Assembly: GCA_013298845.1 (NCBI GenBank)
Contig: JAAFJN010000019.1
Coordinates: 1-64,000 of the forward strand
From: Chitinophagales bacterium
Lineage (GTDB): Bacteria; Bacteroidota; Bacteroidia; Chitinophagales; Saprospiraceae
DNA: 64,000 bases
Direction of reading: 5' to 3'
The position numbers and the translations under genes were made by a program. The notes beneath the pieces were generated by a model that saw only the letters and a list, made by a program, of their open reading frames with translations, made no database searches and had not been told where the DNA came from. Below, in pieces: positions 20,926-35,452 of this stretch. Each line of letters starts with the position of its first letter. Positions within the stretch are counted from its first letter, which is position 1.

Positions 20926-21585
20926 ATGCTTTCTTTCTTTAAAAAACAAAAACCAACGATCAACTCGTTGGTAATTCCAAATTTTAACTGGGACGAAGAA
21001 CAGAATACAGATTCAATAATTCTGTGGACTAATCCCGAACAAACAATGGTGTTATCACTAAACTATATAGATTCACCGCCCAATATACCAACGATTTCAC
21101 AGGTAGAAACACTTAGGAATTATTACAGAGAGATGCTCAAGCCTCTTAATAGTGCACTCGTGGAAGTGGATATTTTAAATATAAAAAATATAGACGCGTG
21201 TAAATTAATTATGAAAGTACCGCAAAAACCAAGTGGAATGACTTATCTCGCTTCATTAACATTTCCCTTCAAAAAATGTCATTTTGTTGTTAAAATCCAA
21301 TGTGCCGAAGTGGGCACAACCGGAGTACGAGAGGCTGTTGTTTTAGATAGGTTAATTTCTAATAAAGAACTCATCATTGGTGAAAATGGCTTTGAAGATT
21401 TTTATTCAGATCCCTACGACAAAACAATTAAAGGGGGCTTATTGAGGAATAAATCAGAAGATATAATTTATGATGATAAATTCCCCAATCACCCTTTAAC
21501 GCAAGCAAGGCGAATCATAAATAAAATTATCGAAGAAATAGAATTTAAGCCTGAAATAAACAAATTAGAGCCTTTTGGCAAATAA
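20926..21585 (+). CDS. Hypothetical cytosolic protein
   Basis: A 219-residue AT-rich gene product without signal peptide or membrane helix. It begins MLSFFKKQKPTINSLVIPNF and has a WTNPEQTMVLSLNY segment; the pattern resembles small immunity-like or housekeeping DUF proteins but no family is recognised. It is the last gene before a strong terminator, so it ends the TonB-receptor transcription unit. Confidence 0.6.
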   Translation: MLSFFKKQKPTINSLVIPNFNWDEEQNTDSIILWTNPEQTMVLSLNYIDSPPNIPTISQVETLRNYYREMLKPLNSALVEVDILNIKNIDACKLIMKVPQKPSGMTYLASLTFPFKKCHFVVKIQCAEVGTTGVREAVVLDRLISNKELIIGENGFEDFYSDPYDKTIKGGLLRNKSEDIIYDDKFPNHPLTQARRIINKIIEEIEFKPEINKLEPFGK

Positions 21586-21621
21586 TTCAATTGATTGCTC
21601 TTAGCGAAGAAAGACAATTTA

Positions 21622-21665
21622 CCAAACCCAAATGACCAAATTGGGTTTGGTTTCTCTTTTTTCAT
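21622..21665 (+). terminator. Rho-independent terminator
   Basis: A perfect 10-bp stem (CCAAACCCAA at 21622-21631 with TTGGGTTTGG at 21641-21650), 9-base loop, then a T-rich tract TTTCTCTTTTTT. It closes the unit that starts with the TonB-dependent receptor. Confidence 0.85.
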
Positions 21666-21829
21666 TTTAGGATAAAAAAGTAGCATATTAGATGGCATTA
21701 CGCAAATCTAGACGCAAGTGAATTTGGTAAACTCTTGAATAATAGCAACAAATAAGCAAACGCACACGCCTTTAGCCGCCGCCGCTCCTACCCCGCCCAA
21801 CAATTCTCCAACAAAGGCAAAAAATCAGT

Positions 21830-21862
21830 TTTGTTAATTCATCAGTCTTATAGTACATTTGT
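21830..21862 (+). promoter_or_regulatory. Promoter of the fucosidase locus
   Basis: TTTG at 21830-21833, 21 bases, TACATTTG at 21855-21862: one of the best Bacteroidota promoter matches in the window. Transcription from it would give a ~110-base leader before the ATG at 21980. The remaining 394-base gap holds the terminator at 21622 and nothing else I can name. Confidence 0.6.
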
Positions 21863-21979
21863 CAGTCTGCCGTAATGGTAACGGAACAAGCCCTAATTAA
21901 CACGCGATTATCGTACTCGAAAAACCCTTTTTTCAACTGGACAACGCGGGTGTCCGAAGCCTAATACTCATTTCTAAAC

Positions 21980-23413
21980 ATGAAAAAATTATTGATTTTC
22001 AGCCTCGTTCTCAGCATTTTCACGACGTTACACGCCCAACAACACAGTGAACAAAGCCACAAAGGTTATATCTCCCCCACCGATCCGTTGGTACAAGCCA
22101 AACTCGGTACCTGGAGCAACCGCAAATTTGGACTGCTGATGCACTGGGGAACGTACAGCCAATGGGGCATTGTGGAAAGTTGGAGCCTTTGCCCCGAAGA
22201 CGAAGGCTGGTGCGAACGGCGCGGCCCCTACAAAGACAATTGGTACGAGTACAAAAAAGCATACGAAGCCCTGCAATATACCTTCAATCCGACCCAGTTT
22301 AAGCCCGAAAAATGGGCCACTGCCGCCAAAGGCGCGGGCATGAAATACGTCGTGTTCACCACCAAACACCACGACGGATTTTGTATGTTCGACAGCAAAT
22401 ACACCGACTATAAAATTACCAATTCGCCTTTTCGGAGCAATCCGCGCAGCAATGTAACCAAAGAGATATTCACGGCCTTTCGCAAAGAGGGTTTTATGAC
22501 CGGCGCGTATTTCTCTAAACCGGACTGGCATTGCCCCGATTATTGGTGGTCGTACTTTCCGCCCAAAGACCGAAATTCCACTTATCCGCCCAAAAAATAC
22601 CCCGAAATATGGAATAGGTTCAAACAATTTACCTACAACCAAATCGAGGAATTGATGACCGATTACGGCAGCATTGACATTCTTTGGCTCGATGGCGGCT
22701 GGGTGCGGCCGTTTAGCACCATTGATACGTCCATTTCCTGGCAAAAAACCATTCCCTTCGACCAGGACATTGATATGGCGCGGATTGCCAAACGCAGCCG
22801 GGAACTACAGCCCGGACTGATTGTGGTGGATCGTACGGTGACGGGCGAATTTGAAAATTACGTCACCCCGGAACACCAAATACCTGATGGTTACATGGCA
22901 ATTCCGTGGGAAACATGTATGACCTTGGGCGATTCGTGGAGTTATGTACCCAAAGAAAATTACAAATCGGCGCGCACCATTATTCACCTGTTGGTGGACA
23001 TTGCTTCCAAAAATGGCAACTTACTGCTCAATGTCGCCCCCAGCCCCGAAGGCGATTTTCACGCGGAAGCCTACACCCGTTTGGCCGAAATCGGGCAATG
23101 GATGGACCTCAACGGCGAAGCGATTTATGGCACCGTGGGAGACAATAAAATCGGCAAACAGGGCAAATTGGAGTTCACCCACAAAGGCGCTACCACTTAT
23201 GCCATTTACCGCGCCGACGAAGGCGAACAATTGCCTAAATCGGTTGAAATCAGCCGTCTGCAACTCAATAAAAACGCTAAAATTAGTTTGATCGGTGCCA
23301 CCGAAAACCTGAAATGGGCGGAAAAAGACGGTAAAATAAACATTGAAATACCTGCCAATACCAACAAACAAAAATTGGTCAATTACGCTTGGGTTTTTAA
23401 AATCAGTCAATAA
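21980..23413 (+). CDS. GH29 alpha-L-fucosidase
   Basis: A 477-residue secreted enzyme (signal MKKLLIFSL..TTLHAQ). GH29 signatures: GLLMHWGTYSQWG (51-63), the TKHHDGFCMFDSKYTDY loop (128-144) and the nucleophile motif DILWLDGGW with Asp238. A conserved C-terminal catalytic-domain segment (NGNLLLNVAPSPEGDF) is present, followed by a short beta sandwich. It hydrolyses terminal alpha-L-fucose from oligosaccharides or glycoproteins by a retaining mechanism. It opens a same-strand locus and is followed after 11 bases by the DUF1549/DUF1553 cytochrome gene, so they are likely co-transcribed. Confidence 0.92.
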   Translation: MKKLLIFSLVLSIFTTLHAQQHSEQSHKGYISPTDPLVQAKLGTWSNRKFGLLMHWGTYSQWGIVESWSLCPEDEGWCERRGPYKDNWYEYKKAYEALQYTFNPTQFKPEKWATAAKGAGMKYVVFTTKHHDGFCMFDSKYTDYKITNSPFRSNPRSNVTKEIFTAFRKEGFMTGAYFSKPDWHCPDYWWSYFPPKDRNSTYPPKKYPEIWNRFKQFTYNQIEELMTDYGSIDILWLDGGWVRPFSTIDTSISWQKTIPFDQDIDMARIAKRSRELQPGLIVVDRTVTGEFENYVTPEHQIPDGYMAIPWETCMTLGDSWSYVPKENYKSARTIIHLLVDIASKNGNLLLNVAPSPEGDFHAEAYTRLAEIGQWMDLNGEAIYGTVGDNKIGKQGKLEFTHKGATTYAIYRADEGEQLPKSVEISRLQLNKNAKISLIGATENLKWAEKDGKINIEIPANTNKQKLVNYAWVFKISQ

Positions 23414-23424
23414 ATACCGACGCC

Positions 23425-25734
23425 ATGACAAATAAATTAATCATATTCGCCGTTACGCTTGCCGCCTTTTGGTATGCGTGTAGTACCAACATGGGTGCTA
23501 CCGAGGCCATACCGGACAAGATCAGTTACAATTTTCACGTTCGGCCCATTTTATCGGACAAATGCTTCGCTTGTCACGGCCCCGACGCCGGGAAACGCCA
23601 GGCCGATTTGCGGTTGGACTTGGAAGCATCGGCGTTTCAACCTTTAAAGGAAACCAAAGGGGCATTTGCCATTGTGAGCGGCAAACCCGAAGAGTCGGAA
23701 GTGTACAAGCGCATCACGTCAAAAGAACCCGATTATATGATGCCCACCCCCGAATCACACCTGGGCGCATTGAGCGAATATGAAATCAAAATTATTGAAA
23801 AATGGATTCAACAGGGGGCTAAATACGAAAAACACTGGGCTTTTACCAAACCCGAAAAAGCGCCTTTACCCAATGTTAAGGACAAAAATTGGGTTAAAAA
23901 TGAAATAGATTATTTTACCCAGGCCAAAATGACCGAACACGGCCTGACGCCCAATAAAGAAGCCGAAAAGGAGTACCTTTTAAAACGGACCGCTTTGGAT
24001 ATTACCGGTTTATTGCCTTCGTTGGAATTGATGGAATCTTTTACCGCCGATAACGGGCCGGATGCCTACGAAAAAGCCATTGACCAACTTTTAGCCACCC
24101 CGCAGTACGGCGAAAAAATGGCCCTGTACTGGCTCGACATCGCCCGTTACGCCGATAGTTATGGTTACCAGGACGATAATATCCGTACGCAATGGGCCTG
24201 GCGCGACTGGGTGATCCACGCTTTTAACCAAAATATGCCTTACGATAAATTTATCACGTGGCAATTGGCGGGCGATTTGGTACCCGATTCGAGCAAAGAA
24301 AGCATTTTGGCGACCGCTTTTTTGCGCAACCATAAATACACCGAAGAAGGCGGTATTATCGAAGAGGAGTACCGGATTGAGTACAATTTGGACAAAACAA
24401 AAACCTATACCAAAGGCGTTTTGGCGCTCACCGCCGAGTGCGCCCAATGCCACAGCCATAAATACGACCCCATTTCGCACGAGGAATATTACCAAATGTT
24501 TGCTTTTTTCAACAACAGCAAAGAAGTGGGTTTTGAGGGCGATGTGAGCCAATCGCTGCCCGCCAAAAAACCTAAACTGACCCTTACTGAACCTGAAATA
24601 AAAAGCATTTTTAATTTTATCAATAAAAAAGATACGGGTTCGATCACCATATCGGTCATGGGCGAATTGGATACCGTACGCCCCACCTATATCCTCGAAC
24701 GCGGGGCCTACGACAAACCGACGAAGCGCGTACAACCGCTGGCTTTTGCCGCCGTTATGCCCTTTGATACCATAAAATTGCCCCGCAACCGGCTGGGTTT
24801 GGCACAATGGACGGTGGATAAAAACAACCCTTTGACCGCCCGCGTTTTTGTCAACCACATGTGGCAGGAGTTTTTCGGCAACGGCATCGTGAGCACAACG
24901 GGTGATTTTGGAATGCAGGGTAATTTACCGACCCATCCCGAACTGTTGGACTGGTTGGCCGTGGATTTTATGGAGCACAAGTGGGATATTAAACGCCTCG
25001 TCAAACAGATATTATTATCGGCCACTTACCGCCAATCGGCGATAGTCAGCGATGAGCATTTGGCCGTTGATCCCGATAATATTTGGTTGGCCCGCTATAC
25101 CCGCACCCGGGTAAAGGCCGAGTTTGTCCGCGATATTGTGCTCAGCAGCAGCGGTTTGTTGCACAAAGAAATTGGTGGTCCCAGCGTAAAACCCTACCAA
25201 CCCAAAGGTTTGTGGGAGAAAGCCACTTCGGGCCGGGGTGTTTTGGCCAAATATGAATTAGACGAAGGCGAAGCACTGTATCGCCGGGGCATGTACACCT
25301 TTATCAAACTGACCGTCCCTCCCCCTTCGATGGTCATGTTCGATGCCAGCAACCGCGACCAATGCGAGGTCAAACGCTCCAAAACCAATACCCCGTTACA
25401 GGCGCTCATTATGCTGAACGACCCCACCGTTTTGGAGGCATCCCGGGGTTTTGCCCAGCGGCTGTTGACCGAACAAAATACGATGGACGACAAAATCACG
25501 AAAGCCTTTCAAACGATTATTTGCCGAAAACCCTCCCAAAAAGAAAAAGAGATTTTAACGACCTATTTCAGGGATCAATTAACCCTTTTTCAAAATAAAA
25601 AATTGGACGCTGCCAAAACACTCGCCATTGGTGCATCGGAGGTGAATAAAGCCCTTGATGTGAACGAATCAGCCGCCCTGATGAAGGTGGTCAGCACGAT
25701 TTATAACATGGAAGAGGCCATTACAAAAACGTAA
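23425..25734 (+). CDS. DUF1549/DUF1553 protein with N-terminal cytochrome c domain
   Basis: A 769-residue protein of a type common in Planctomycetes and Verrucomicrobia. After a lipoprotein-like signal (LAAFWYAC) comes a PSCyt1-type heme domain with CFACH (Cys47, Cys50, His51), then DUF1549 (~155-355) including the second conserved cysteine pair and His at CAQCH (339-343), and DUF1553 (~450-710) with an HPELLDWLAVDFMEH segment. The family's reaction is not established; it is usually beside DUF1501 and polysaccharide or sulfatase genes. Here it lies between a GH29 fucosidase (11 bases) and DUF1501 (12 bases), which supports a role in breaking down fucose-containing glycans. Confidence 0.9.
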   Translation: MTNKLIIFAVTLAAFWYACSTNMGATEAIPDKISYNFHVRPILSDKCFACHGPDAGKRQADLRLDLEASAFQPLKETKGAFAIVSGKPEESEVYKRITSKEPDYMMPTPESHLGALSEYEIKIIEKWIQQGAKYEKHWAFTKPEKAPLPNVKDKNWVKNEIDYFTQAKMTEHGLTPNKEAEKEYLLKRTALDITGLLPSLELMESFTADNGPDAYEKAIDQLLATPQYGEKMALYWLDIARYADSYGYQDDNIRTQWAWRDWVIHAFNQNMPYDKFITWQLAGDLVPDSSKESILATAFLRNHKYTEEGGIIEEEYRIEYNLDKTKTYTKGVLALTAECAQCHSHKYDPISHEEYYQMFAFFNNSKEVGFEGDVSQSLPAKKPKLTLTEPEIKSIFNFINKKDTGSITISVMGELDTVRPTYILERGAYDKPTKRVQPLAFAAVMPFDTIKLPRNRLGLAQWTVDKNNPLTARVFVNHMWQEFFGNGIVSTTGDFGMQGNLPTHPELLDWLAVDFMEHKWDIKRLVKQILLSATYRQSAIVSDEHLAVDPDNIWLARYTRTRVKAEFVRDIVLSSSGLLHKEIGGPSVKPYQPKGLWEKATSGRGVLAKYELDEGEALYRRGMYTFIKLTVPPPSMVMFDASNRDQCEVKRSKTNTPLQALIMLNDPTVLEASRGFAQRLLTEQNTMDDKITKAFQTIICRKPSQKEKEILTTYFRDQLTLFQNKKLDAAKTLAIGASEVNKALDVNESAALMKVVSTIYNMEEAITKT

Positions 25735-25746
25735 AAAACAACGATC

Positions 25747-27189
25747 ATGGAAAAAGAAATCTTAGAGCACGGTCTCAACATCAACCGTCGAAAATTTCTC
25801 TCAAAACTCGGCATTGGGATTGGCAGTGCGGCCCTTGGTTCGCTGTTGATGCCTGATCTGTTTGGGAGCGATGAAGAAGCCATTATGGCGGGTTTGCCGC
25901 ATTTTGCACCGAAAGCCAAACGGGTGATTTACCTGTTTCAAAACGGTGCGCCTTCCCAATTGGATTTGTTTGATTACAAACCCAAATTGAACGAAATGTT
26001 TGGGCAGGAGTTGCCCGCCTCCATTCGAATGGGGCAACGGCTGACCGGCATGACCTCCGGCCAAACCAGTTACCCGCTGGCCGGTTCGGTGTTCAAGTTC
26101 AATCAATACGGCCAACACGGTACCTGGTTGAGTGAAATCCTTCCTTATACCTCAAAGATTGTGGACGATATCTGCGTGATTAAAACCATGCACACCGAAG
26201 CCATCAACCACGATCCGGCGTTAACGTTTTTCCAAACCGGCGCCCAAGTGGGCAACCGCCCCAGTTTTGGCTCGTGGCTGAGTTATGGTTTGGGTAGTGA
26301 AAATAAAAACTTACCTGCTTTTTGTGTGCTTTTATCGCAAGGTAAAGGCAATGGGCAGGGTGTGTATTCCAAACTCTGGACCAATGGCTTCCTGGATGCC
26401 ACGCACCAGGGCGTACAATTTAGCAGCGGCGAAAATCCGGTGTTGTACCTCAACAACCCCGATGCCATTGACAAAGAAGACCGCCGCAAAATGCTCGATC
26501 AGGTAGCGGCCCTCAACAGTGAAAGTTATCAGGTGTTCGGCGATCCCGCCATTCAGGCCAAAATCCAGCAATACGAAATGGCCTTTCGGATGCAAACGGC
26601 CGTGCCCGAAATCACGGATTTGCGCAACGAACCCAAAGACGTGATTAAAATGTACGGACCCGATTGCCTCGTTCCCGGCACGTACGCCGCCAACTGCCTG
26701 TTGGCCCGCAAACTCTCCGAAAATGGGGTGCGTTTTGTGCAACTTTACCACCAGGGTTGGGACGGACACGGCAACCTGCCCGGCGAAATCAGGGGGCAAT
26801 GCTTAGATACCGACCAGGCATCCGCGGCCTTAATCACCGACCTCAAACAACGCGGCTTGTTGGATGAAACCCTCGTGATTTGGGGGGGAGAATTTGGGCG
26901 CACCAACTTCTGTCAGGGACCTTTCTCCCGAGAAAATTATGGTCGCGACCACCACCCGCGTTGCTTCTCCATTTGGATGGCCGGTGGCGGCATTAAACCG
27001 GGTGTTTACGGCGAAACGGACGAATTTGGTTACAATATTGCCGAAAACCCCGTTCACGTCAACGATTTTCACGCCACTGCCCTGCATTTGATGGGGCTTG
27101 ACCACGAAAAATTGACGTACAAACATTTAGGTCGCCGGTACCGGTTAACGGACGTGGCGGGTAAAGTGGTGAAGGGAATTTTGGCGTAA
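25747..27189 (+). CDS. DUF1501 protein with Tat-like signal
   Basis: A 480-residue protein. The N-terminus carries a twin-arginine-like motif (NRRKFLSKLG, Arg14-Arg15) followed by a hydrophobic stretch, so it is probably exported folded. The core has the alkaline-phosphatase/sulfatase-like fold of the DUF1501 family: KAKRVIYLFQNGAPSQLDLFDYKP, LYHQGWDGHGNLP, VIWGGEFGRTNF, HHPRCFSIWMAGGGI and HATALHLMGLDHEKLTYKHLGR, which include likely metal ligands. The family occurs in a fixed pair with DUF1549/DUF1553, as here (12-base gap). Activity is unproven; a hydrolytic or transfer reaction on an ester-substituted sugar is an inference. Confidence 0.88.
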   Translation: MEKEILEHGLNINRRKFLSKLGIGIGSAALGSLLMPDLFGSDEEAIMAGLPHFAPKAKRVIYLFQNGAPSQLDLFDYKPKLNEMFGQELPASIRMGQRLTGMTSGQTSYPLAGSVFKFNQYGQHGTWLSEILPYTSKIVDDICVIKTMHTEAINHDPALTFFQTGAQVGNRPSFGSWLSYGLGSENKNLPAFCVLLSQGKGNGQGVYSKLWTNGFLDATHQGVQFSSGENPVLYLNNPDAIDKEDRRKMLDQVAALNSESYQVFGDPAIQAKIQQYEMAFRMQTAVPEITDLRNEPKDVIKMYGPDCLVPGTYAANCLLARKLSENGVRFVQLYHQGWDGHGNLPGEIRGQCLDTDQASAALITDLKQRGLLDETLVIWGGEFGRTNFCQGPFSRENYGRDHHPRCFSIWMAGGGIKPGVYGETDEFGYNIAENPVHVNDFHATALHLMGLDHEKLTYKHLGRRYRLTDVAGKVVKGILA

Positions 27190-27553
27190 GATAATCAAGT
27201 GATTGGTGAAAAATTTGTTCTTTTAGGCCAACTTCCTACTTTTTGAGGCCAAAAAGTAGGCAAAAAGCCCGCGGCTGACGAAAAATCCTACGATTTTGCT
27301 TTCCGTTTCCGGCCGCGCCAAAAAAACTCGCCGGTCGCCCTCACGGGGGCTTTTGCCCCGCCAATGACGTTTGGCTCAAACAGTTTTTGGCTTCATCGGC
27401 CTCCAACGGAGCAAAATCGGGATTTTTCTAAGGCCGCACCGGCAAAGGACGGAAGAATGGGGATTGGAGATACTGCCCGATTTTGTCACGCACTAAGACT
27501 TTGGGAAAGATTATTGCTTGGGTCAAATTTACTGAGCACAAAAAAAGCATTTC
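27190..27553. other. 364-base intergenic region with structured repeat-like sequence
   Basis: Separates DUF1501 from the membrane cytochrome gene. It contains the hairpin at 27235-27260, further short inverted pieces and a GC-rich block (GGCCGCGCC...CGCCGGTCGCCC) unlike coding DNA. Small open frames here lack signals or family resemblance. The mosaic resembles dispersed intergenic repeats of Saprospiria, but no second copy is in this window. Confidence 0.45.
27235..27260 (+). terminator. Hairpin after the DUF1501 gene, possible terminator
   Basis: A perfect 11-bp stem (CCTACTTTTTG with CAAAAAGTAGG) around a 4-base loop, 46 bases after the stop codon. The following sequence is A-rich, not T-rich, so termination on the plus strand is uncertain; it may instead be the edge of an intergenic repeat. 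Confidence 0.4.
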
Positions 27554-29695
27554 ATGAAAAACACCGTTTATAATATCACTTTCGGCATCAATTGCCTGTT
27601 GCTTTTTCTTGTTTTGGTGGGCAAAACCTTAGCCATACCAACGATGCTGCAAGTGGTCGGGCGAATGCACCCTTTGTTGCTGCATTTCCCCATTGTTTTA
27701 TTGGTCATGACGCTGGTCTGGGAGTTGTTTTTGCGCAAAAAAAACGCCGCCGGGACAGCATCGGCCAACCCCGACATTGGTGACTATTTATTGCTGTCCG
27801 CTGCTTTTACGGCGGCTTTATCGGCTTTGATGGGCCTGTTTTTGTCGCAGGAAGAAGGGTACAATGCCGAGGCGATTGCGTGGCATAAATGGACGGGCAC
27901 CGCCGTTTCGTTGCTGTCATTGGGTTGGTATGCTTTTAGAGACGCCATTCGGTCCACGTACACGCGTTGGGTGAGCGGAGCGAGTTTGGTGGCCCTCGTA
28001 ATGGCGGGTCATCAGGGTGCGAATATCACCCACGGCGAAGACTTTTTAACCGCCCCGCTGCATTCCAAAACCGAGGCCGCCACCGTATCCGCCGAAGACG
28101 CGATGGTTTTTGACGATGTGGTAAAACCCATTTTAGAAAAAAAATGCGTCAGTTGCCATAACAGTAAAAAATCGAAAGGCGAATTGCGGATGGAGACCGC
28201 CGAACAATTGCTAAAAGGGGGTAAACACGGCAAATTATGGGATGTTAATGCGGCTGATTTGGGGTTGCTGGTACAACGGATACATTTGCCCATGGAAGCC
28301 AAGGAACACATGCCACCCGCCGGGAAACCTCAATTAAGCGGCGATGAAATGGCTATTTTACGCCATTGGATCAAGGGCGGGGCTGATTTCAAACTAAAAG
28401 TAAAAGATTTGGCGGATGCGGATACCCTAAAAATATTGGCCCAAGCCCTGCTCAAAACGAACGAGACCGAAACCTTCACCTTCAAAGCCGCAGACGAAGG
28501 AACCATTAAAAAATTGACAACCAACTACCGGGTCATTACCCCTTTGTCTTTGGGTTCACCGGCATTAAGCGTTGATTTTTTTGGGGCTTCCCAGTTTAAC
28601 AACGCACAATTGAACGAATTGCAGGCCATTAAAGCACAAATTGTTCAGTTGAATCTCAATAAAATGCCCGTAAAAGACGAAGACCTAAAAACGATTGCGG
28701 GTTTTGAAAACTTGAGAAAACTCAATTTGTCCTTTACCCAAATCACCGGTGCCACCCTAAGTGAACTAAAAAAACTCAAATTCCTGCGCACGTTGTCGCT
28801 CTCCGGTACCAGCATCAAAAGTGCTGATCTGGCAACGTTAAAAGACCTGCCCGCCCTGCGCGCACTGCAATTGTGGAATACAAATATCCCTAAAAACGAT
28901 CTAACAGCCTTAAAATCAACCTTGAGCGGAACAGCCATTGAGACGGGTTTTGAGGGCGATACCATCGTTGCCAAATTAAGTATGCCCATATTGGTGGACG
29001 ACGAAGTTCAGGTTTTTCAGCAAGATGCCACCATCAGGCTCAAGCACTACGTCAACGGAGCGGTTATTCGCTACACCTTAGATGGCACGCCGCCCGACAG
29101 CCTCACATCGCCCGCTTACACCGACGGAGGTATCCTGATTGATAAAACCGCCGTTTTGAAAGCAAAAGCGTATCTCGACGGCTGGTTGAGCAGTGATACC
29201 TTGACCCAACAGTTTTACCGCGCCGGTTTTATGACCGATTCCGTACGTTTGGGATACCTGCCCAATCCCCAATATTCGGGCAAAGGACAAATGTTGTTTG
29301 ACGGTAAATTGGGCGGTAAAAACTTTAAAAGTGGCAAATGGCTGGGCTTCAAAGAAACCTTTTTGGAGGGTTATGCTTATTTTGAACAACCAGTTCTTAT
29401 TTCAAAAGTCACGTTTAGCACCTTAATTGACATTGGCAGTTACATTATGCCGGCCCAGGAATTGCAGGTCTGGGGCGGTAATAGTGTCTCGGATTTGGTG
29501 TTGTTACAAAAGATCAACCCCAAACAACCCACTCAAATTACATCATCGGGTTTACAGGGTTTTGAATGCACTTTTCAGCCAAAACAAGTAAAAATATTAA
29601 AATTGGTGGGCAAATCGGTCCAAAAACTACCGCCTTGGCATCCGGGCAAAGGAGAAAAAGGCTGGCTGTTTGTGGATGAGGTGTTTGTGAATTAG
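27554..29695 (+). CDS. Membrane cytochrome c-type protein with leucine-rich repeats and chitobiase-like domain
   Basis: A 713-residue mosaic. Residues ~10-155 form four membrane helices of the DUF2231-like type (GRMHPLLLHFPIVLLV). Next come a PSCyt1-like heme c domain with CVSCH (198-202), a stretch of ~4 leucine-rich repeats (~355-455: LRKLNLSFTQI, LRTLSLSGTSI), a chitobiase-like C-terminal Ig domain (~485-560; IRYTLDGTPPDSLTSPAY), and a C-terminal discoidin-like domain ending W.FVDEVFVN. The same C-terminal module occurs in the fucosidase 18 bases downstream. The design suggests an inner-membrane or envelope electron carrier tied to glycan handling. Confidence 0.8.
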   Translation: MKNTVYNITFGINCLLLFLVLVGKTLAIPTMLQVVGRMHPLLLHFPIVLLVMTLVWELFLRKKNAAGTASANPDIGDYLLLSAAFTAALSALMGLFLSQEEGYNAEAIAWHKWTGTAVSLLSLGWYAFRDAIRSTYTRWVSGASLVALVMAGHQGANITHGEDFLTAPLHSKTEAATVSAEDAMVFDDVVKPILEKKCVSCHNSKKSKGELRMETAEQLLKGGKHGKLWDVNAADLGLLVQRIHLPMEAKEHMPPAGKPQLSGDEMAILRHWIKGGADFKLKVKDLADADTLKILAQALLKTNETETFTFKAADEGTIKKLTTNYRVITPLSLGSPALSVDFFGASQFNNAQLNELQAIKAQIVQLNLNKMPVKDEDLKTIAGFENLRKLNLSFTQITGATLSELKKLKFLRTLSLSGTSIKSADLATLKDLPALRALQLWNTNIPKNDLTALKSTLSGTAIETGFEGDTIVAKLSMPILVDDEVQVFQQDATIRLKHYVNGAVIRYTLDGTPPDSLTSPAYTDGGILIDKTAVLKAKAYLDGWLSSDTLTQQFYRAGFMTDSVRLGYLPNPQYSGKGQMLFDGKLGGKNFKSGKWLGFKETFLEGYAYFEQPVLISKVTFSTLIDIGSYIMPAQELQVWGGNSVSDLVLLQKINPKQPTQITSSGLQGFECTFQPKQVKILKLVGKSVQKLPPWHPGKGEKGWLFVDEVFVN

Positions 29696-29712
29696 ACAGT
29701 AAATTTAAAAAA

Positions 29713-31740
29713 ATGATAAAAAACACTTCAATAACCCTGACAATACTCCTTTGGGTATCTATCATATTTGCCCAACAACCGGGCAACTACACCCCCATTT
29801 TGCCCACCGACCAACCAAAAGACATCATCCGGAAAGCGGCGAATATTACCCCCTCGCCCCGGCAACTCCGCTGGCAGGAATTGGAACTGACCGCCTTTTT
29901 TCACTTTGGGATGAACACGTACACCAATCGGGAATGGGGAAAAGGGCACGAGGCCGAAACGCTGTTCAATCCGACCGAATTGGACGTGGATCAATGGGTG
30001 CGGGTCTGCCAACAAGCCGGGATAAAACAAGTGATTTTGACCGCCAAACACCACGATGGGTTTTGCCTGTGGCCAAGCCAATACACCGAACATTCGGTGA
30101 AAAGCAGTCCGTGGAAAGCCGGAAAAGGCGACGTGATGAAAGACCTGTCCGCCGCCTGCAAAAAATACAACATCGGTTTTGGTTTTTACCTGTCGCCCTG
30201 GGATATAACAGAAGCCACCTACGGCACGGACGCCTACAACGACTTTTTTGTGCACCAATTGACCGAATTATTGACCAATTACGGGCAAATTGACGAAGTA
30301 TGGTTCGATGGTGCCTGCGGCGAAGGCCCCAACGGCAAAAAACAAGTGTATGATTTTGATCGCTATTACCAACTGATTCGCGAACTTCAGCCCACGGCGC
30401 TCATTGCCATTATGGGACCGGATGTGCGTTGGGTAGGTACGGAATCGGGTTATGGCCGGGAAACCGAATGGAGCGTGATGCCGGTGGATGCCCAACTACA
30501 AGAAAGTATTTCAAAAAATTCACAAACCGACGTGACATTTGCACCCATGGGCGACATGACCGATTCGGATTTGGCCAGCCGTTCCAAGATCCTGGGTGCA
30601 AAAGGTTTAATTTGGTACCCTTCGGAAACCGATGTTTCGATTCGGCCGGGTTGGTTTTATCACCAGGAAGAAGACCATCGGGTAAAAACGCCGGAAAAAC
30701 TATTTGATATTTATTGCAGTTCCGTCGGGCGAAACAGCGTGTTATTGCTCAACCTGCCCCCCGACCAACGCGGCCTGATCCACGAAAACGACGTAAAAAA
30801 CCTGCTGGCCTGGCGTAAATTATTAGACGAAACCTTTCAAACCAACCTGGCGACTGGCGCATCGGTAAAATCCAGGAATGGCAAACATCCGCAGCATATC
30901 CTCGACGGCAAAAACACCACCCATTTTACCACCAAAGGAACCGACACCACAACGGTCATTGATATCCAATTAAAAAAACGCCAAACCTTTGATGTGTTGC
31001 AATTGCAGGAAAATATCAGCATTGGGCAACGGATCGAGGCGTTCCGATTGGAGTATTGGGACAAAACGGGCTGGAAAGAAGTGGCAACCGGCACAACAGT
31101 TGGTTACAAACGGATACTGCGTTTTGAACCCATCACCACCAATAAAGTCCGGTTGCACATCCTGTCTTCCCGCTTAAATCCGACCATCGCGGAGTTCGGT
31201 TTGTACAAATTACCTCCTTCGGTAGTATTCAAAGTGAACACCCTTGAAAAACTCCGAAAACCCAACCCCAACAACAAGGCCATTGGCAAACCCACTCAAC
31301 TCAAAACCCTCCCCGATCCTAAATACAACAAGAGCGGCAACGCGGGCTGGAACAACGGCATTTTTGGCAGCAATACCGCCTTCAATGACGGCGAATGGCT
31401 GGGCTGGAGTGGACAGGATTTTGAAGGCACCATAGATTTGCAAAAAACAGAGGCCCTGAAAACGGTCAGTATTGACTTTTTCAACCTGCCCCAAAGTTGG
31501 ATTTACATGCCCTCGGAAGTGACCTTATCTGCCTCCGACGATGGTGTACATTTTAAAACAATGGAAACGCAAAGTAATTTCAGCATTGCCGAAGAAGGTG
31601 TGCGGCGGGTTAGTTTCAAAGCCGATATTCGGGCAAAACACCTCAAAATCACCGCAAAACACTACGGTTTAATCCCAAAAGGGTATGAAGGTGCTGGTTC
31701 GCCCGCGTGGTTGTTTGTGGATGAGGTCGTGGTGGAATAA
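29713..31740 (+). CDS. GH29 alpha-L-fucosidase with C-terminal binding domains
   Basis: A 675-residue secreted enzyme (signal MIKNTSITL..IIFAQ). The GH29 catalytic domain (~40-360) has FFHFGMNTYTNREWG, TAKHHDGFCLW and IDEVWFDGACG with nucleophile Asp199. A discoidin-like (F5/8) domain follows (~375-500), then a second one (~535-675) ending PAWLFVDEVVVE, which closely matches the end of the upstream cytochrome protein. The extra binding domains distinguish it from the shorter GH29 at 21980 and suggest attachment to a polymer. It lies 18 bases after the cytochrome gene, and the next gene starts 45 bases after its stop. Confidence 0.9.
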   Translation: MIKNTSITLTILLWVSIIFAQQPGNYTPILPTDQPKDIIRKAANITPSPRQLRWQELELTAFFHFGMNTYTNREWGKGHEAETLFNPTELDVDQWVRVCQQAGIKQVILTAKHHDGFCLWPSQYTEHSVKSSPWKAGKGDVMKDLSAACKKYNIGFGFYLSPWDITEATYGTDAYNDFFVHQLTELLTNYGQIDEVWFDGACGEGPNGKKQVYDFDRYYQLIRELQPTALIAIMGPDVRWVGTESGYGRETEWSVMPVDAQLQESISKNSQTDVTFAPMGDMTDSDLASRSKILGAKGLIWYPSETDVSIRPGWFYHQEEDHRVKTPEKLFDIYCSSVGRNSVLLLNLPPDQRGLIHENDVKNLLAWRKLLDETFQTNLATGASVKSRNGKHPQHILDGKNTTHFTTKGTDTTTVIDIQLKKRQTFDVLQLQENISIGQRIEAFRLEYWDKTGWKEVATGTTVGYKRILRFEPITTNKVRLHILSSRLNPTIAEFGLYKLPPSVVFKVNTLEKLRKPNPNNKAIGKPTQLKTLPDPKYNKSGNAGWNNGIFGSNTAFNDGEWLGWSGQDFEGTIDLQKTEALKTVSIDFFNLPQSWIYMPSEVTLSASDDGVHFKTMETQSNFSIAEEGVRRVSFKADIRAKHLKITAKHYGLIPKGYEGAGSPAWLFVDEVVVE

Positions 31741-31785
31741 ATGCGACGGTCTTCGACTTCATCAATAATACTAAAAAACACAAAC

Positions 31786-33456
31786 ATGAATCTTAAATAC
31801 GCATCGCACCAGGTTTTCACTGGCCCACCGGCTCCAAAATTGACGTTCATAAAAGCCTTATTCATTGGCCTATTTTTCTCCTGTGCAGCCGCCAGCGTTG
31901 CCCAAGATATTACTTACTTGACCGGGAGCGGCAATTTTACCAATGGTGAAACCACCGAACGGGAAATACACCAGATTAATGCCTTGAACTACTGTGGTGC
32001 CAAAAGAACCAGGGTTAGCGTATACCCCTCGTACTATTACAATTCAGATACTCAAATGGGTAATCCATCTTCCATTGACAGCATCATGATTTTATTGCAC
32101 CAGGGAGGCATTACCCCCATGATTCTTTTTGAATATTATGGTTGGTACAATGCGTTGGGATCATATGATAAATGGTATGAAATCGGCAGAAGTTTTGCGG
32201 AGCGGTGGAGACCCAATTCCCCATACCTGCTTTCCAAAAACATAACAAACTGGGGTATTTCGGTGTATTCGGCGATTAATGAGCCTGACATTAATACGCC
32301 ATACGTCCCCAGAACGATTGCCGATGGCCCCGAAAATTATCACGACGCCTTAGAAGGATTGGCTGATGGTATTCATGCTGTTGATACCAGTTTGAGCGCC
32401 ATACCCGGAGGCTGGGCATCACAAAATGCGTTTAGTTGGAATGATGCCAATGGCTATGGTACTGCCATTGTAGATTTGATCAACAATGGAAAACTGGCCG
32501 GTTTTGATATTCATACGTACAATGACAATACTTTTGCTCCTATTGTAGATCAGCAAAATGAATTTTATTGGCGTTATTCGGCCCAAGCGGATTTTAATGA
32601 AATTCAAGAAGAAATCGGGATTACGAGACCGGTCAAATTTTATGCAACCGAATTCAGTTATAAAGCAAATATCCTGGGAATTAGTGAGGAAGAATCCGCG
32701 AAAAGACATTTTACGTGTATTTGGAACAATATAGGCGCTGTAAAAAGTGATGGTTCTACTCCTGCAACAAAATTCGCATTGGTTTGGAATTTATTTCACA
32801 CGGTTGAATTTGATTCCGTGTATGGAATGTGCCATCAATTATTTCCATATACCCCTAATCTCAAAGGGCAAGCCTTTAAACTTGTAATGGATCTTGGCGC
32901 CGGAATGAATTTCACCTACTTGGATCCTAATAATTCAGGTATTTATAAACTTACCGATGGCGAAAAAGAGATGTGGGTATGGCAAAATTATTACCGTTGG
33001 AGTAATATTGAAGGAACGTCATTTACCATTGATCTGCCAGAAGATGCTTCCAAAATATTGTTGTATAATTACAGTGGTTTGCTCGATTCGGTAGCAGTGT
33101 CCGGCTTGCAAAATTATACATTTACCCAACTGCCGGAAAGCGAAACATTAGTATTTGTCATTCTAAAACAATCCCCTGTTTCGGTGGATAAAGACTTGCA
33201 ACCACAGGTTGATTTCCCGTGGACAGTATCGCCCAATCCTGCGACGGGTATTGTTTCAGTTGCGTTTCAGGGCAACCCGATTTCATTGAACAGCAACATC
33301 GTGCACATTAAAGATATGGTGGGCAACCTGCTATTGGAAAAATCAGTAGATCAGGGTGATTTCTCCATTGATATGACTAATTTTAACGCCGGTGTTTATG
33401 TGATGACCATCGCAAATGGTGATGTACAAACGAGTATCAAAGTTGTCAAAATTTAA
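31786..33456 (+). CDS. Clan A (GH5/GH39-like) glycoside hydrolase with T9SS type A tag
   Basis: The ATG at 31786 is used; an in-frame ATG immediately at the preceding stop would add 15 residues before the signal-like segment. Of 556 residues, ~42-440 look like a TIM-barrel glycosidase with the clan-A pair: NEP at 165-167 (acid/base Glu166) and ATEF with Glu289 as likely nucleophile. The C-terminal ~75 residues are a type A sorting domain (VSPNPATG, VHIKDMVGNLLLE, GVYVMTIANG). It should be secreted through T9SS. The substrate (xylan, agarose-like or another galactan) cannot be told from sequence. Same strand as the fucosidases and probably in one transcript. Confidence 0.8.
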   Translation: MNLKYASHQVFTGPPAPKLTFIKALFIGLFFSCAAASVAQDITYLTGSGNFTNGETTEREIHQINALNYCGAKRTRVSVYPSYYYNSDTQMGNPSSIDSIMILLHQGGITPMILFEYYGWYNALGSYDKWYEIGRSFAERWRPNSPYLLSKNITNWGISVYSAINEPDINTPYVPRTIADGPENYHDALEGLADGIHAVDTSLSAIPGGWASQNAFSWNDANGYGTAIVDLINNGKLAGFDIHTYNDNTFAPIVDQQNEFYWRYSAQADFNEIQEEIGITRPVKFYATEFSYKANILGISEEESAKRHFTCIWNNIGAVKSDGSTPATKFALVWNLFHTVEFDSVYGMCHQLFPYTPNLKGQAFKLVMDLGAGMNFTYLDPNNSGIYKLTDGEKEMWVWQNYYRWSNIEGTSFTIDLPEDASKILLYNYSGLLDSVAVSGLQNYTFTQLPESETLVFVILKQSPVSVDKDLQPQVDFPWTVSPNPATGIVSVAFQGNPISLNSNIVHIKDMVGNLLLEKSVDQGDFSIDMTNFNAGVYVMTIANGDVQTSIKVVKI

Positions 33457-33475
33457 TCATTGGTCTCTACCTTTG
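33443..33475 (+). promoter_or_regulatory. Promoter of the fatty acid hydroxylase gene
   Basis: TTG at 33443-33445, 22 bases, TACCTTTG at 33468-33475. The -33 element lies inside the 3' end of the preceding gene. It leaves a leader of ~80 bases. Confidence 0.55.
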
Positions 33476-33563
33476 CGATGGAAAACATTCATTAGTTTTT
33501 CAGAATATAAACGATAGTTTGGCTGGCGCTCAATGGTAAACTACAGCGTTGCAACTTCAAAAC

Positions 33564-34271
33564 ATGCTGGATAAAATAGTTTTTATTTTCACGTTAACCT
33601 TTGTGCATTATTTTGGCTTTGCGGCCTTATTGTACTGGTTTTATTACGTTTTTGGCCGCGAGCGGTTTACGCAAATCAGGATACAGCAGCGCGTTGCCAC
33701 CAGAAAGGATTTTCGGCGGGAATTTTTGCTTTCTTCGGTATCGGCCAGTATTTACGCAATGGTGTTGTACCTGTGCTTGTACGCTCCTTTTTTCCAACCC
33801 TATTCGAGGATGTACCACTCGGTGGCCGAATTTGGGGTGTTGTATTGGGTTTTATCCGGGGTGGGTTTGTTGGTTTTGCACGATACCTGGTTTTATTGGA
33901 CCCACCGTTTGTTACACACGCCATATTTACTAAAAACGGTCCACGCATACCACCACCGTTCCCTTGCCCCTACCCCATTTTCGGCCTTTGCGTTTCACCC
34001 CGTTGAAGCCCTAATCACGGTGGCGGTTTACCCACTGGCTTTGCTCTTATTTCCCGTGCATTTGTACCTGTTTATGGGCTGGTGGCTGGTGATCGTGGTG
34101 GGTAATATGTTTGGGCATTTGGGTTTTGAACCTTTACAACGCTGGATACACACCAAACTGTTTGGGTATTTTTTAGGTTCTACCCATCACAATCTGCACC
34201 ACCAAAATGGCCGGATTTGGTTTGGGTTTCTTTTTGCGTTTTGGGATCGCAGGATGGGGACGGGGAAGTGA
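33564..34271 (+). CDS. Sterol desaturase / fatty acid hydroxylase superfamily membrane protein
   Basis: A 235-residue integral membrane protein; the ATG at 33564 is used rather than an upstream TTG. It carries the histidine clusters that bind a di-iron centre in this superfamily: HDTWFYWTHRLLH (His106, His114, His118), HAYHH (127-131) and HHNLHH (208-213). Four to five helices precede and separate them. Family members hydroxylate or desaturate fatty acids, carotenoids or sterol-like lipids. In Bacteroidota a role in carotenoid or sulfonolipid hydroxylation is possible, but no pathway neighbour points to a substrate. Confidence 0.85.
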   Translation: MLDKIVFIFTLTFVHYFGFAALLYWFYYVFGRERFTQIRIQQRVATRKDFRREFLLSSVSASIYAMVLYLCLYAPFFQPYSRMYHSVAEFGVLYWVLSGVGLLVLHDTWFYWTHRLLHTPYLLKTVHAYHHRSLAPTPFSAFAFHPVEALITVAVYPLALLLFPVHLYLFMGWWLVIVVGNMFGHLGFEPLQRWIHTKLFGYFLGSTHHNLHHQNGRIWFGFLFAFWDRRMGTGK

Positions 34272-34311
34272 GTTTTTTTGTGCGGCTGTTTTAAAATGTA
34301 AAAATATACGG

Positions 34312-34319
34312 TATATTTG
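34312..34319 (+). promoter_or_regulatory. -7 promoter element TATATTTG
   Basis: A perfect TAnnTTTG match 27 bases upstream of the small membrane protein ATG at 34347. A TTTT 19 bases further upstream (34289-34292) could serve as a weak -33. Confidence 0.45.
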
Positions 34320-34346
34320 CGCGTTAAAACAAATCAACTACTTACA

Positions 34347-34559
34347 ATGAAAATTTACAAAACAGGGCTTATTCTTACCATTTTAAGTTGGCTTGCTTCC
34401 TTAAATCCTTTCTGGATCATGTACACCGGCCCAGCATTTATATACAAGTTTCATACCATGTCGGTTAATTCATGGGACAGTTTAAGGGCGCAAAAAACAG
34501 GAGCCTTGACTGACAGATTATTTGATAGTTTATTATACGAATGTAGGCAAAAGAGATAA
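34347..34559 (+). CDS. Small protein with one hydrophobic segment
   Basis: A 70-residue product (MKIYKTGLILTILSWLASLNPFWIMY...) with a hydrophobic stretch near its N-terminus and a basic, polar C-terminus. No family is recognised. It has a credible promoter element just upstream, which raises the chance that it is real. The ATG at 34347 is preferred over an upstream TTG at 34317, which would lie inside the promoter. Confidence 0.45.
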   Translation: MKIYKTGLILTILSWLASLNPFWIMYTGPAFIYKFHTMSVNSWDSLRAQKTGALTDRLFDSLLYECRQKR

Positions 34560-34603
34560 AAAATACTCGCCAGCGTGAATTTAAACTATTTACACCACAC
34601 CAC

Positions 34604-35452
34604 GTGAATATAACACAAATACAACACGAACCCATCGAAAAATACCCCTATTGGATTGTTCAAACCGGCGGTAGGGATATTGGCGGCAATCGGGTCATTG
34701 AACAGGTTGATTTGCCCATTTTTTGGGGCCAAATAACGGGCCTTGGGCATCATCTCGATGCCATTATTGCCACCTCCGATTTGCAAGGCACCGTTAAAGA
34801 CGGCGAAAACGAGTATCTTTTGGGCGAAAAATTGCCGGAATTTTTGTCCATGTTTATCGCCCTCGAATTCCCACACCTCGATCCCAAAAGGATTGGAGTT
34901 GTGCTTTGCGGGGACTTGTACGCAAATCTGGAAAAAAGAGGCGGCCGGGGCGATGTAAAAGACGTTTGGCGAACCTTTAACCAATATTTCAAATGGGTAG
35001 TGGGTGTTGCCGGTAATCACGACGATTTTGGCGACAAAAAAACCTTGGAAAGTTTTACCCGAGAGCCGGGTATTCATTACCTGCACCGGCACATAAAAGA
35101 ACTTGATCAAATAAAAGTGGGCGGCATCAGCGGTATTATTGGCCGGGCCGATAAGCCACAAAGAGTAGAAGAAAACGAATATCTTTCCGCCCTGAAAAAA
35201 TTGCTGCTCCAACAACCTTCCATGATTTTACTCCACCAAAGTCCGGGTATTCCGCAAAATAACCTGCAAGGCAGCGAAGAAATAATGAATGTGTTGGAAA
35301 AATCGCCGCCTAACCTGGTATTTTCTGGGCACTCGCACTGGGACACGCCGCTGGCTACGCTTCATAATGGTACCCAGGTGGTTAATTTGGATGGCCGGGT
35401 TTTGATATTGGTAAATGATCAGAAGTTCCGCGAATTAAAACAAACCAAATAG
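34604..35452 (+). CDS. Calcineurin-like metallophosphoesterase
   Basis: A 282-residue cytosolic protein read from a GTG codon at 34604; the next in-frame ATG is 82 codons later and would remove the first metal motif. Binuclear-metal motifs are present: SD-L-QG (Asp59), CGDLY (Asp104), GNHDD (Asn138, His139), LLHQSPG (His211) and SGHSHWD (His243, His245). The spacing fits phosphodiesterases/phosphatases of the calcineurin fold. The substrate is unknown. Confidence 0.82.
   Translation: MNITQIQHEPIEKYPYWIVQTGGRDIGGNRVIEQVDLPIFWGQITGLGHHLDAIIATSDLQGTVKDGENEYLLGEKLPEFLSMFIALEFPHLDPKRIGVVLCGDLYANLEKRGGRGDVKDVWRTFNQYFKWVVGVAGNHDDFGDKKTLESFTREPGIHYLHRHIKELDQIKVGGISGIIGRADKPQRVEENEYLSALKKLLLQQPSMILLHQSPGIPQNNLQGSEEIMNVLEKSPPNLVFSGHSHWDTPLATLHNGTQVVNLDGRVLILVNDQKFRELKQTK

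Follow-up and report, generated by a model that had tools for sequence, protein, structure and literature searches.

A conserved trio of two cytochromes and a DUF1501 protein in Bacteroidota, often but not mostly beside changing glycosidases

DUF1501, DUF1549 and DUF1553 are abundant protein families without a known job. According to the excerpts of PMC2754498 that were available, Rhodopirellula baltica contains 41 copies of DUF1549 and of DUF1553. In metagenome-assembled genomes of Verrucomicrobia, as described in the accessible portion of PMC5615132, PSCyt2 genes adjoin a family of unknown genes and sulfatases are often located near PSCyt genes, whose function is unknown; the idea that PSCyt genes mirror the functions of glycoside hydrolases (GHs) is also published there for this group. 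Here, a six-gene fucosidase locus of an uncultured Saprospiraceae-type bacterium is compared with these and other described systems. The locus lies on the plus strand of a single contig (JAAFJN010000019.1, assembly GCA_013298845.1), whose positions 1 to 64,000, the whole stretch of DNA analyzed, are referred to as the window. The conserved unit within it is the middle trio, which consists of a two-heme cytochrome (CYT1), a DUF1501 protein and a membrane cytochrome (MEMC). A literature search, judged by titles, the starts of abstracts and passages, retrieved no description of a Bacteroidota trio with this membrane partner, and the available parts of PMC11495043, PMC5673643 and PMC12078418 do not describe it.

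The first scan of genome contigs for MEMC gave 12 loci (designated, like all later ones, by L and a number), in all of which CYT1, DUF1501 and MEMC were found in this order on one strand, either directly or with up to five genes interspersed. Sixty further stretches were added and four were dropped as repeats of earlier contigs, and 69 loci, including the window, were compared. CYT1 and DUF1501 were located upstream of MEMC on the same strand in 48 of the 51 loci that had a full-length MEMC and at least 6.5 kb of upstream sequence (window included, near-identical loci not merged), which supports the view that the heme and DUF1501 proteins belong together. The three other loci were L093, L100 and L107, and L093 had CYT1 only, its DUF1501 probably being hidden by open reading frame (ORF) calling. 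Since loci were picked by MEMC, this count is silent on CYT1 and DUF1501 copies elsewhere; in the genome of the window, DUF1501 gave nine matches and DUF1553 two. Among 63 loci with a full-length MEMC, 25 (window included) had the bare trio, 12 had a beta-propeller and a fibronectin type III (Fn3)-type gene between DUF1501 and MEMC, 8 had the propeller alone and 3 had both genes after MEMC, the remaining 15 being of other kinds (many cut by contig ends). The trio was also present in cultured strains of Dyadobacter, Flavihumibacter and Jiulongibacter. In the family, 177 of 398 genomes had a profile match of the MEMC type (E <= 1e-60), and in the phylum 45 of 395 had one. These counts include shorter forms and do not give per-genome copy numbers, since scoring was limited to the two best candidates of each genome; an earlier description of the layout as uncommon for this phylum should thus be used with care. 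A shorter MEMC form of about 475 aa was observed in L117 (340-5083) and L120, in a similar block of a gene of about 910 aa, DUF1501 and a gene of about 310 aa, and in L117 this block is directly preceded by three sulfatase-cluster genes with CxPSR. Separately, a second DUF1549/DUF1553 paralog (916 aa, L017:9026-11776, G000:C89) exists in the genome of the window, and no DUF1501 or full MEMC homolog was detected in the 20-kb stretch around it.

The features of the locus are listed below.

21980..23413, plus strand: GH29a, an alpha-L-fucosidase (GH29 PF01120, E 7.8e-97, and Fucosidase_C PF16757; closest PDB entry 6gn6).
23425..25734, plus strand: CYT1, PSCyt1-DUF1549(PSCyt2)-DUF1553(PSD1) by Pfam, with two CxxCH heme sites at residues 47-51 and 339-343.
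25747..27189, plus strand: DUF1501 protein (PF07394, E 1.7e-151), with an RR-x-F signal resembling the twin-arginine translocation (Tat) type and a predicted sulfatase/alkaline-phosphatase superfamily fold.
27203..27494, plus strand: 5'-truncated copy of a dispersed inverted-repeat element of about 363 bases, like a miniature inverted-repeat transposable element (MITE), recognized by repeat matches, alignment and inverted ends.
27554..29695, plus strand: MEMC, with a DUF2231 membrane domain, a PSCyt1 heme c domain, leucine-rich repeats (LRR), CHB_HEX_C/Fn3_assoc and a C-terminal domain (Pfam).
29713..31740, plus strand: GH29b, of alpha-1,3/4-fucosidase type by sequence, with an F5/8 type C domain (Pfam; PDB matches 4zrx and 3mo4/3ues).
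31786..33456, plus strand (from the second Met; the ORF opens at 31741): secreted protein with a type IX secretion system (T9SS) type A sorting domain (PF18962, TIGR04183), a glycosidase by motif only.

ORFs and Pfam domains agree with the six plus-strand genes as they had been called. The intergenic gaps are 11, 12, 364, 17 and then 0 bases (or 45, taking the second Met of the last gene as its start). A Pfam and NCBIfam profile scan covered nine window proteins (20926 to 35449). In the last gene, these libraries recognize the T9SS sorting tail and no GH family, and its PDB sequence matches comprise a weak C-terminal one to 5jvk and, among GHs, only a beta-glucuronidase at E 0.78. The T9SS tag was therefore confirmed, but the label of clan-A glycosidase has no profile support and reflects motifs seen by eye (N-E-P and a later Glu), because there is no recognized catalytic family. 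None of the nine scanned proteins matched a SusC, SusD or sulfatase family, so the earlier view of a locus without SusC/SusD holds, and the SusC-SusD pair of a canonical polysaccharide utilization locus (PUL) is absent from the six-gene cluster. A TonB-receptor-like protein of about 780 aa, shorter than SusC, is encoded farther upstream (18139-20478), two genes before the first GH29; it has a weak PDB match to a TonB-dependent receptor and is 36% identical to a plug-domain protein just downstream of the trio in L082. SusD gave 13 match rows elsewhere in the genome and none on the window contig; the organism can thus build ordinary Sus-type loci. Scans for promoters (20 promoter-like sites versus 17.6 in shuffles) and terminators (12 versus 21.1) were made, and neither result was used.

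The three proteins of the trio are strict in their motifs. CYT1 has an apparent lipoprotein signal (by eye) and the Planctomycete-type PSCyt/PSD composition, i.e., PSCyt1, PSCyt2 and PSD1 with CxxCH, and both CxxCH sites are invariant in 49 of 49 aligned sequences. Its structure model, of good quality overall (pLDDT 83, pTM 0.86), had no match below E 1 among PDB structures, and a sequence search returned only a kinase (E 0.8). MEMC has one CxxCH and His39, His44 and His111 in all 69 sequences, and His153 and His160 in 68 of 69. With an inside N-terminus and five membrane segments, the five conserved His would all face the periplasm; we infer this topology, since a hydropathy scan of the membrane region gave only three strong segments. 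The C-terminal parts (about 145 aa) of MEMC (29243-29689) and GH29b (31294-31734) are related (25.7% identity, E 4.8e-9), which suggests, from sequence, that these two proteins of the operon have a binding domain in common; the C-terminal part of GH29b also matches the PDB beta-hexosaminidase 6q63.

In the DUF1501 protein, the signal residues R14, R15 and F17 are invariant (53/53), as are H155, D339, H341, E382, R385 and H403. Its model (pLDDT 76, pTM 0.81) is predicted to have a sulfatase/alkaline-phosphatase superfamily fold: a Foldseek search of the PDB gave 125 matches at E <= 0.001 (best 1.5e-6, prob 1.00), and the 50 matches listed, as far as their titles are informative, are sulfatases, LtaS/LtaP (lipoteichoic acid synthases) and related enzymes. 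Profile alignment by hhalign with five sulfatases of the fetched loci agreed over 100 C-terminal columns (prob 89, E 2e-6) and placed E382 opposite an invariant Asp of sulfatases, which we take to be a metal ligand. The N-terminal half aligned to sulfatases without confidence and gave no position for the nucleophile. The motif [CS]xPxR (CxPxR/SxPxR), the nucleophile motif of S1 (formylglycine) sulfatases, is absent from 52 of 53 DUF1501 rows, the window among those without it, and a formylglycine sulfatase was rejected as the identity of DUF1501 for lack of this motif. The earlier statement that no sulfatase is present consequently stands for S1 enzymes in the scanned stretch but needs qualification, as DUF1501 is itself a predicted sulfatase-fold protein. 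The abundance of binding domains in MEMC and the lack of a sulfatase nucleophile motif in DUF1501 could also fit a non-enzymatic role, in which the cytochromes and DUF1501 form a heme-based sensor or a scaffold holding glycans at the inner membrane through LRR, Fn3 and chitobiase-type domains; nevertheless, the strict heme motifs and the DUF1501 polar residues kept in 53 of 53 sequences look catalytic, and such a role is considered very unlikely.

The window differs from its nearest relatives in the gap between DUF1501 and MEMC. L051-L053, whose DUF1501 is 91-95% identical, have propeller and Fn3-type genes where the window has its 364-base gap, and L053 has one additional small gene there. 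The gap is structured, as had been noticed (RNA fold z = -4.0), and this strong fold is explained by the dispersed repeat of which 27203-27494 is a part; 26 match rows, this copy included, were found in the same genome. A regulatory RNA or attenuator was considered and rejected for this reason, a structured RNA function not being needed as an explanation, and Rfam had no match in the window at gathering score. Among 17 sequences of the repeat examined, the best-scoring inverted ends were 352-365 bases apart in 10, differing at 0 to 9 of 21 end bases; two of the 17 (L137 and L141) are bordered by exact direct repeats of 9 bases, the others being truncated or too diverged to score. The element, represented by L135-L150 and the window copy, is MITE-like and about 363 bases long in full, with 21-base inverted ends. 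The window copy keeps its right end and lacks its left end, and the simplest history would be that the element inserted and that a later deletion removed the propeller and Fn3 genes together with the left end. Another GH29-containing frame of this genome (1435 aa) also has a copy of the same element (G000:C9:90230-90525; L145, L174) about 200 bases upstream of it.

The fucosidases recur with the trio at changing places. In L051, an ortholog of GH29a (89% identical) follows the trio behind one GH31, and on the contig of L171, L172 and L053, orthologs of GH29a (86%) and GH29b (78%) are found on the strand of the trio, 20-37 kb upstream of MEMC. This roughly 45-kb stretch, almost entirely on one strand, encodes a TonB-receptor-like protein, GH18, the GH29a ortholog, metallophosphoesterases, a PNGase-F-like protein, a DUF4838 protein, an esterase, the GH29b ortholog, a GDSL esterase, a sulfatase, a T9SS protein, Gfo/Idh/MocA, GH20 and the trio. 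Three ethanolamine-use genes (a permease and ammonia-lyase subunits, identified by eye) also occur inside it (L171:16476-19730, L172:1823-2581). GH29 relatives were detected in the stretches of only four of the 68 non-window loci (L051, L061, L081 and L114), in L114 on the other strand and in L081 five genes away, and GH29 was present somewhere in 47 of 53 MEMC-bearing genomes, suggesting that fucose is one cargo among several. The six-gene cluster as a conserved unit was rejected: its last gene clusters with no protein of the other 68 loci, and the fucosidases move. Hence, of the expected gene order, the trio is kept and the link to fucosidases recurs, but the six-gene unit is not supported, because GH genes change place or give way to other families.

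With respect to the substrate, GH29b matched PDB entries 4zrx (E 1.8e-154) and 3mo4/3ues (E about 8e-141) over about 450 residues, and its candidate nucleophile D199 and acid/base E244 align with the Asp and Glu of Blon_2336 that we take to be catalytic, which points to an alpha-1,3/4-fucosidase (subfamily B) type. Together with the GH18, PNGase-F-like and GH20 set of the relative, this would suit fucosylated N-glycans or Lewis structures, not fucoidan. Release or modification of fucoidan-like glycans, as originally proposed, could be argued from the two GH29 genes, the sulfatase-type fold predicted for DUF1501 and the sulfatase of the relative locus L172. It is made less likely by the alpha-1,3/4 (Lewis) type of GH29b, by the GH18, GH20 and PNGase-like genes of the relative and by the [CS]xPxR motif missing from DUF1501; moreover, no fucoidanase (GH107/GH168) or S1 sulfatase was found among the nine scanned proteins by Pfam and NCBIfam, whose coverage of fucoidanase families was not checked. 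The chance that the locus acts on fucoidan-like glycans is regarded as very slim.

For both flanks of the core, a census was made of the first same-strand gene of at least 150 aa lying no more than 200 bases away, the window being left out and near-identical loci merged (L054/L075, L073/L074, L090/L091 and L111-L113). Counting started at CYT1 in L053 and passed over a spurious 90-aa ORF in L079, and L069 was kept although its contig ends beside MEMC; the cut propeller in L069 was excluded, as was L100, where CYT1 and DUF1501 are not beside MEMC and a sulfatase adjoins MEMC. Glycoside hydrolases accounted for seven of the 42 first neighbors (GH31, GH3, GH20, GH29, GH130, GH18 and GH78), the GH29 of L061 being identified by BLAST and an ADP-ribosylglycohydrolase not being counted as a GH. 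None was found among 30 random genes (one-sided Fisher p = 0.018), which were drawn from 20 of the same genomes (one stretch per genome, on the contig of the trio and more than 20 kb away), as the 20 genes nearest the stretch center plus 10 of the 20 second genes, with a PNGase-F-like protein among them not counted. Other sugar-linked neighbors include an FGGY kinase (L061, where GH29 flanks the opposite side), a sugar isomerase-like protein (L073), Gfo/Idh/MocA (L079), galactarate/altronate dehydratase with tagaturonate reductase (L108), SusD (L103, upstream), a TonB receptor (L082) and a regulator resembling hybrid two-component systems (HTCS, L115). Upstream of CYT1, an ASPIC/UnbV FG-GAP protein (L051:311-4925) and a PAP2-family protein (L093, identified by clustering only) were observed in one genome each. 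The association with glycosidases is thus visible in the counts yet modest, the trio being often, not mostly, beside changing glycosidases; the proposed tie of the heme and DUF1501 proteins to glycans is modestly upheld but is not specific to fucose. The Gfo/Idh/MocA gene of L079, together with one that is the second gene upstream of CYT1 in L172, raises the alternative of a keto-sugar route, in which the sugar ring is oxidized by such enzymes, with the cytochromes either regenerating the cofactor of these enzymes or oxidizing a keto product. The best curated match of the L079 protein is the glycoside 3-dehydrogenase family BT_2158, at 142 bits and far below the cut-off of 750, but no Gfo/Idh/MocA protein is among the nine of the window and only these two loci among those with scanned neighbors have one, which leaves this route with a small chance of being correct.

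The best explanation, held tentatively and at somewhat less than even chances, is a glycan-use operon built around a conserved periplasmic redox-hydrolase module that feeds electrons from glycan sugars to the quinone pool. Secreted or periplasmic fucosidases would trim fucosylated oligosaccharides of the Lewis or N-glycan type, and DUF1501, whose predicted fold is of sulfatase type and whose active site is altered, may bind or hydrolyze a substituent on the released sugar. The two c-type hemes of CYT1 would take up electrons from the sugar and relay them to the heme c of MEMC, from which they could reach the quinone pool via a heme or metal site that the five conserved His would form on the outer side of the membrane domain. 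In relatives, the propeller and Fn3 proteins would act as partners that bind the substrate, and in the window they were probably lost after the insertion of the mobile repeat.

Several points weigh against this explanation. No biochemical data on the three families of the trio were found in the papers searched, and the direction of electron flow, the redox partner and the substrate, as read from the genes, are all putative. The CYT1 model falls below pLDDT 50 at residues 49-55, the first heme site, and the TM-scores of DUF1501 by query are low (0.27-0.37 among the 50 matches listed). The numbers behind the GH enrichment are small, and 25 of the 42 first neighbors, by the author's sorting, have no evident sugar link and some no family at all; they include DnaE, triosephosphate isomerase, ornithine-decarboxylase-like, ABC transporter, pseudouridine synthase, caspase-like, thioredoxin-like, SelR and Uma2 proteins. 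Accordingly, the trio might be a general respiratory or envelope redox module that fucosidases adjoin by chance or through co-expression only, as most loci have no GH beside the trio, many neighbors are housekeeping genes and GH29 relatives are near so few loci; in addition, the Rhodopirellula DUF1549/DUF1553 gene RB10051 is discussed under the common stress response in the available excerpts of PMC2754498. However, the GH share of the neighbors compared with the random genes, the difference of GH families between genomes and the recurrence of both fucosidases with the trio argue against a general module, which is possible but rather unlikely.

The trio may couple sugar breakdown to respiration, and its changing glycosidase neighbors supply a list of candidate substrates. 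Bacteroidota offer simpler cases for finding the function of the trio: among 100 genomes sampled from the family of the window, 42 had a DUF1553 match and 18 of these had exactly one. A bolder proposal, which appears improbable at present, is that the trio is a new class of periplasmic glycan-processing machine, in which a two-heme redox enzyme of unseen fold and a sulfatase-fold protein with a different nucleophile (perhaps the invariant His155) would deliver the electrons of sugar cleavage into respiration, with exchangeable glycosidases setting the substrate.

Compared with known systems, the window resembles a SusC/SusD-type PUL in clustering glycosidases with a T9SS-tagged protein and in having a TonB-receptor-like gene 1.5 kb upstream, whereas its operon has a heme module in place of SusC/SusD; a relative trio locus (L103) has SusD upstream. 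GH29b shares the aligned catalytic residues of GH29 subfamily B (3mo4/3ues, 4zrx) and differs in having an extra C-terminal region (residues 528-674), to which the C-terminal region of MEMC is related. DUF1501 is like S1 sulfatases and the alkaline phosphatase superfamily in its predicted fold and about 100 C-terminal residues, but it has no [CS]xPxR in 52 of 53 sequences and another conserved polar set. With the PSCyt/PSD genes of Verrucomicrobia, as described in the accessible portion of PMC5615132, the trio has the PSCyt1, PSCyt2 and PSD1 domains in common, whereas in Bacteroidota these are joined by a fixed third partner, the DUF2231 membrane cytochrome, and often by a propeller and an Fn3 protein.

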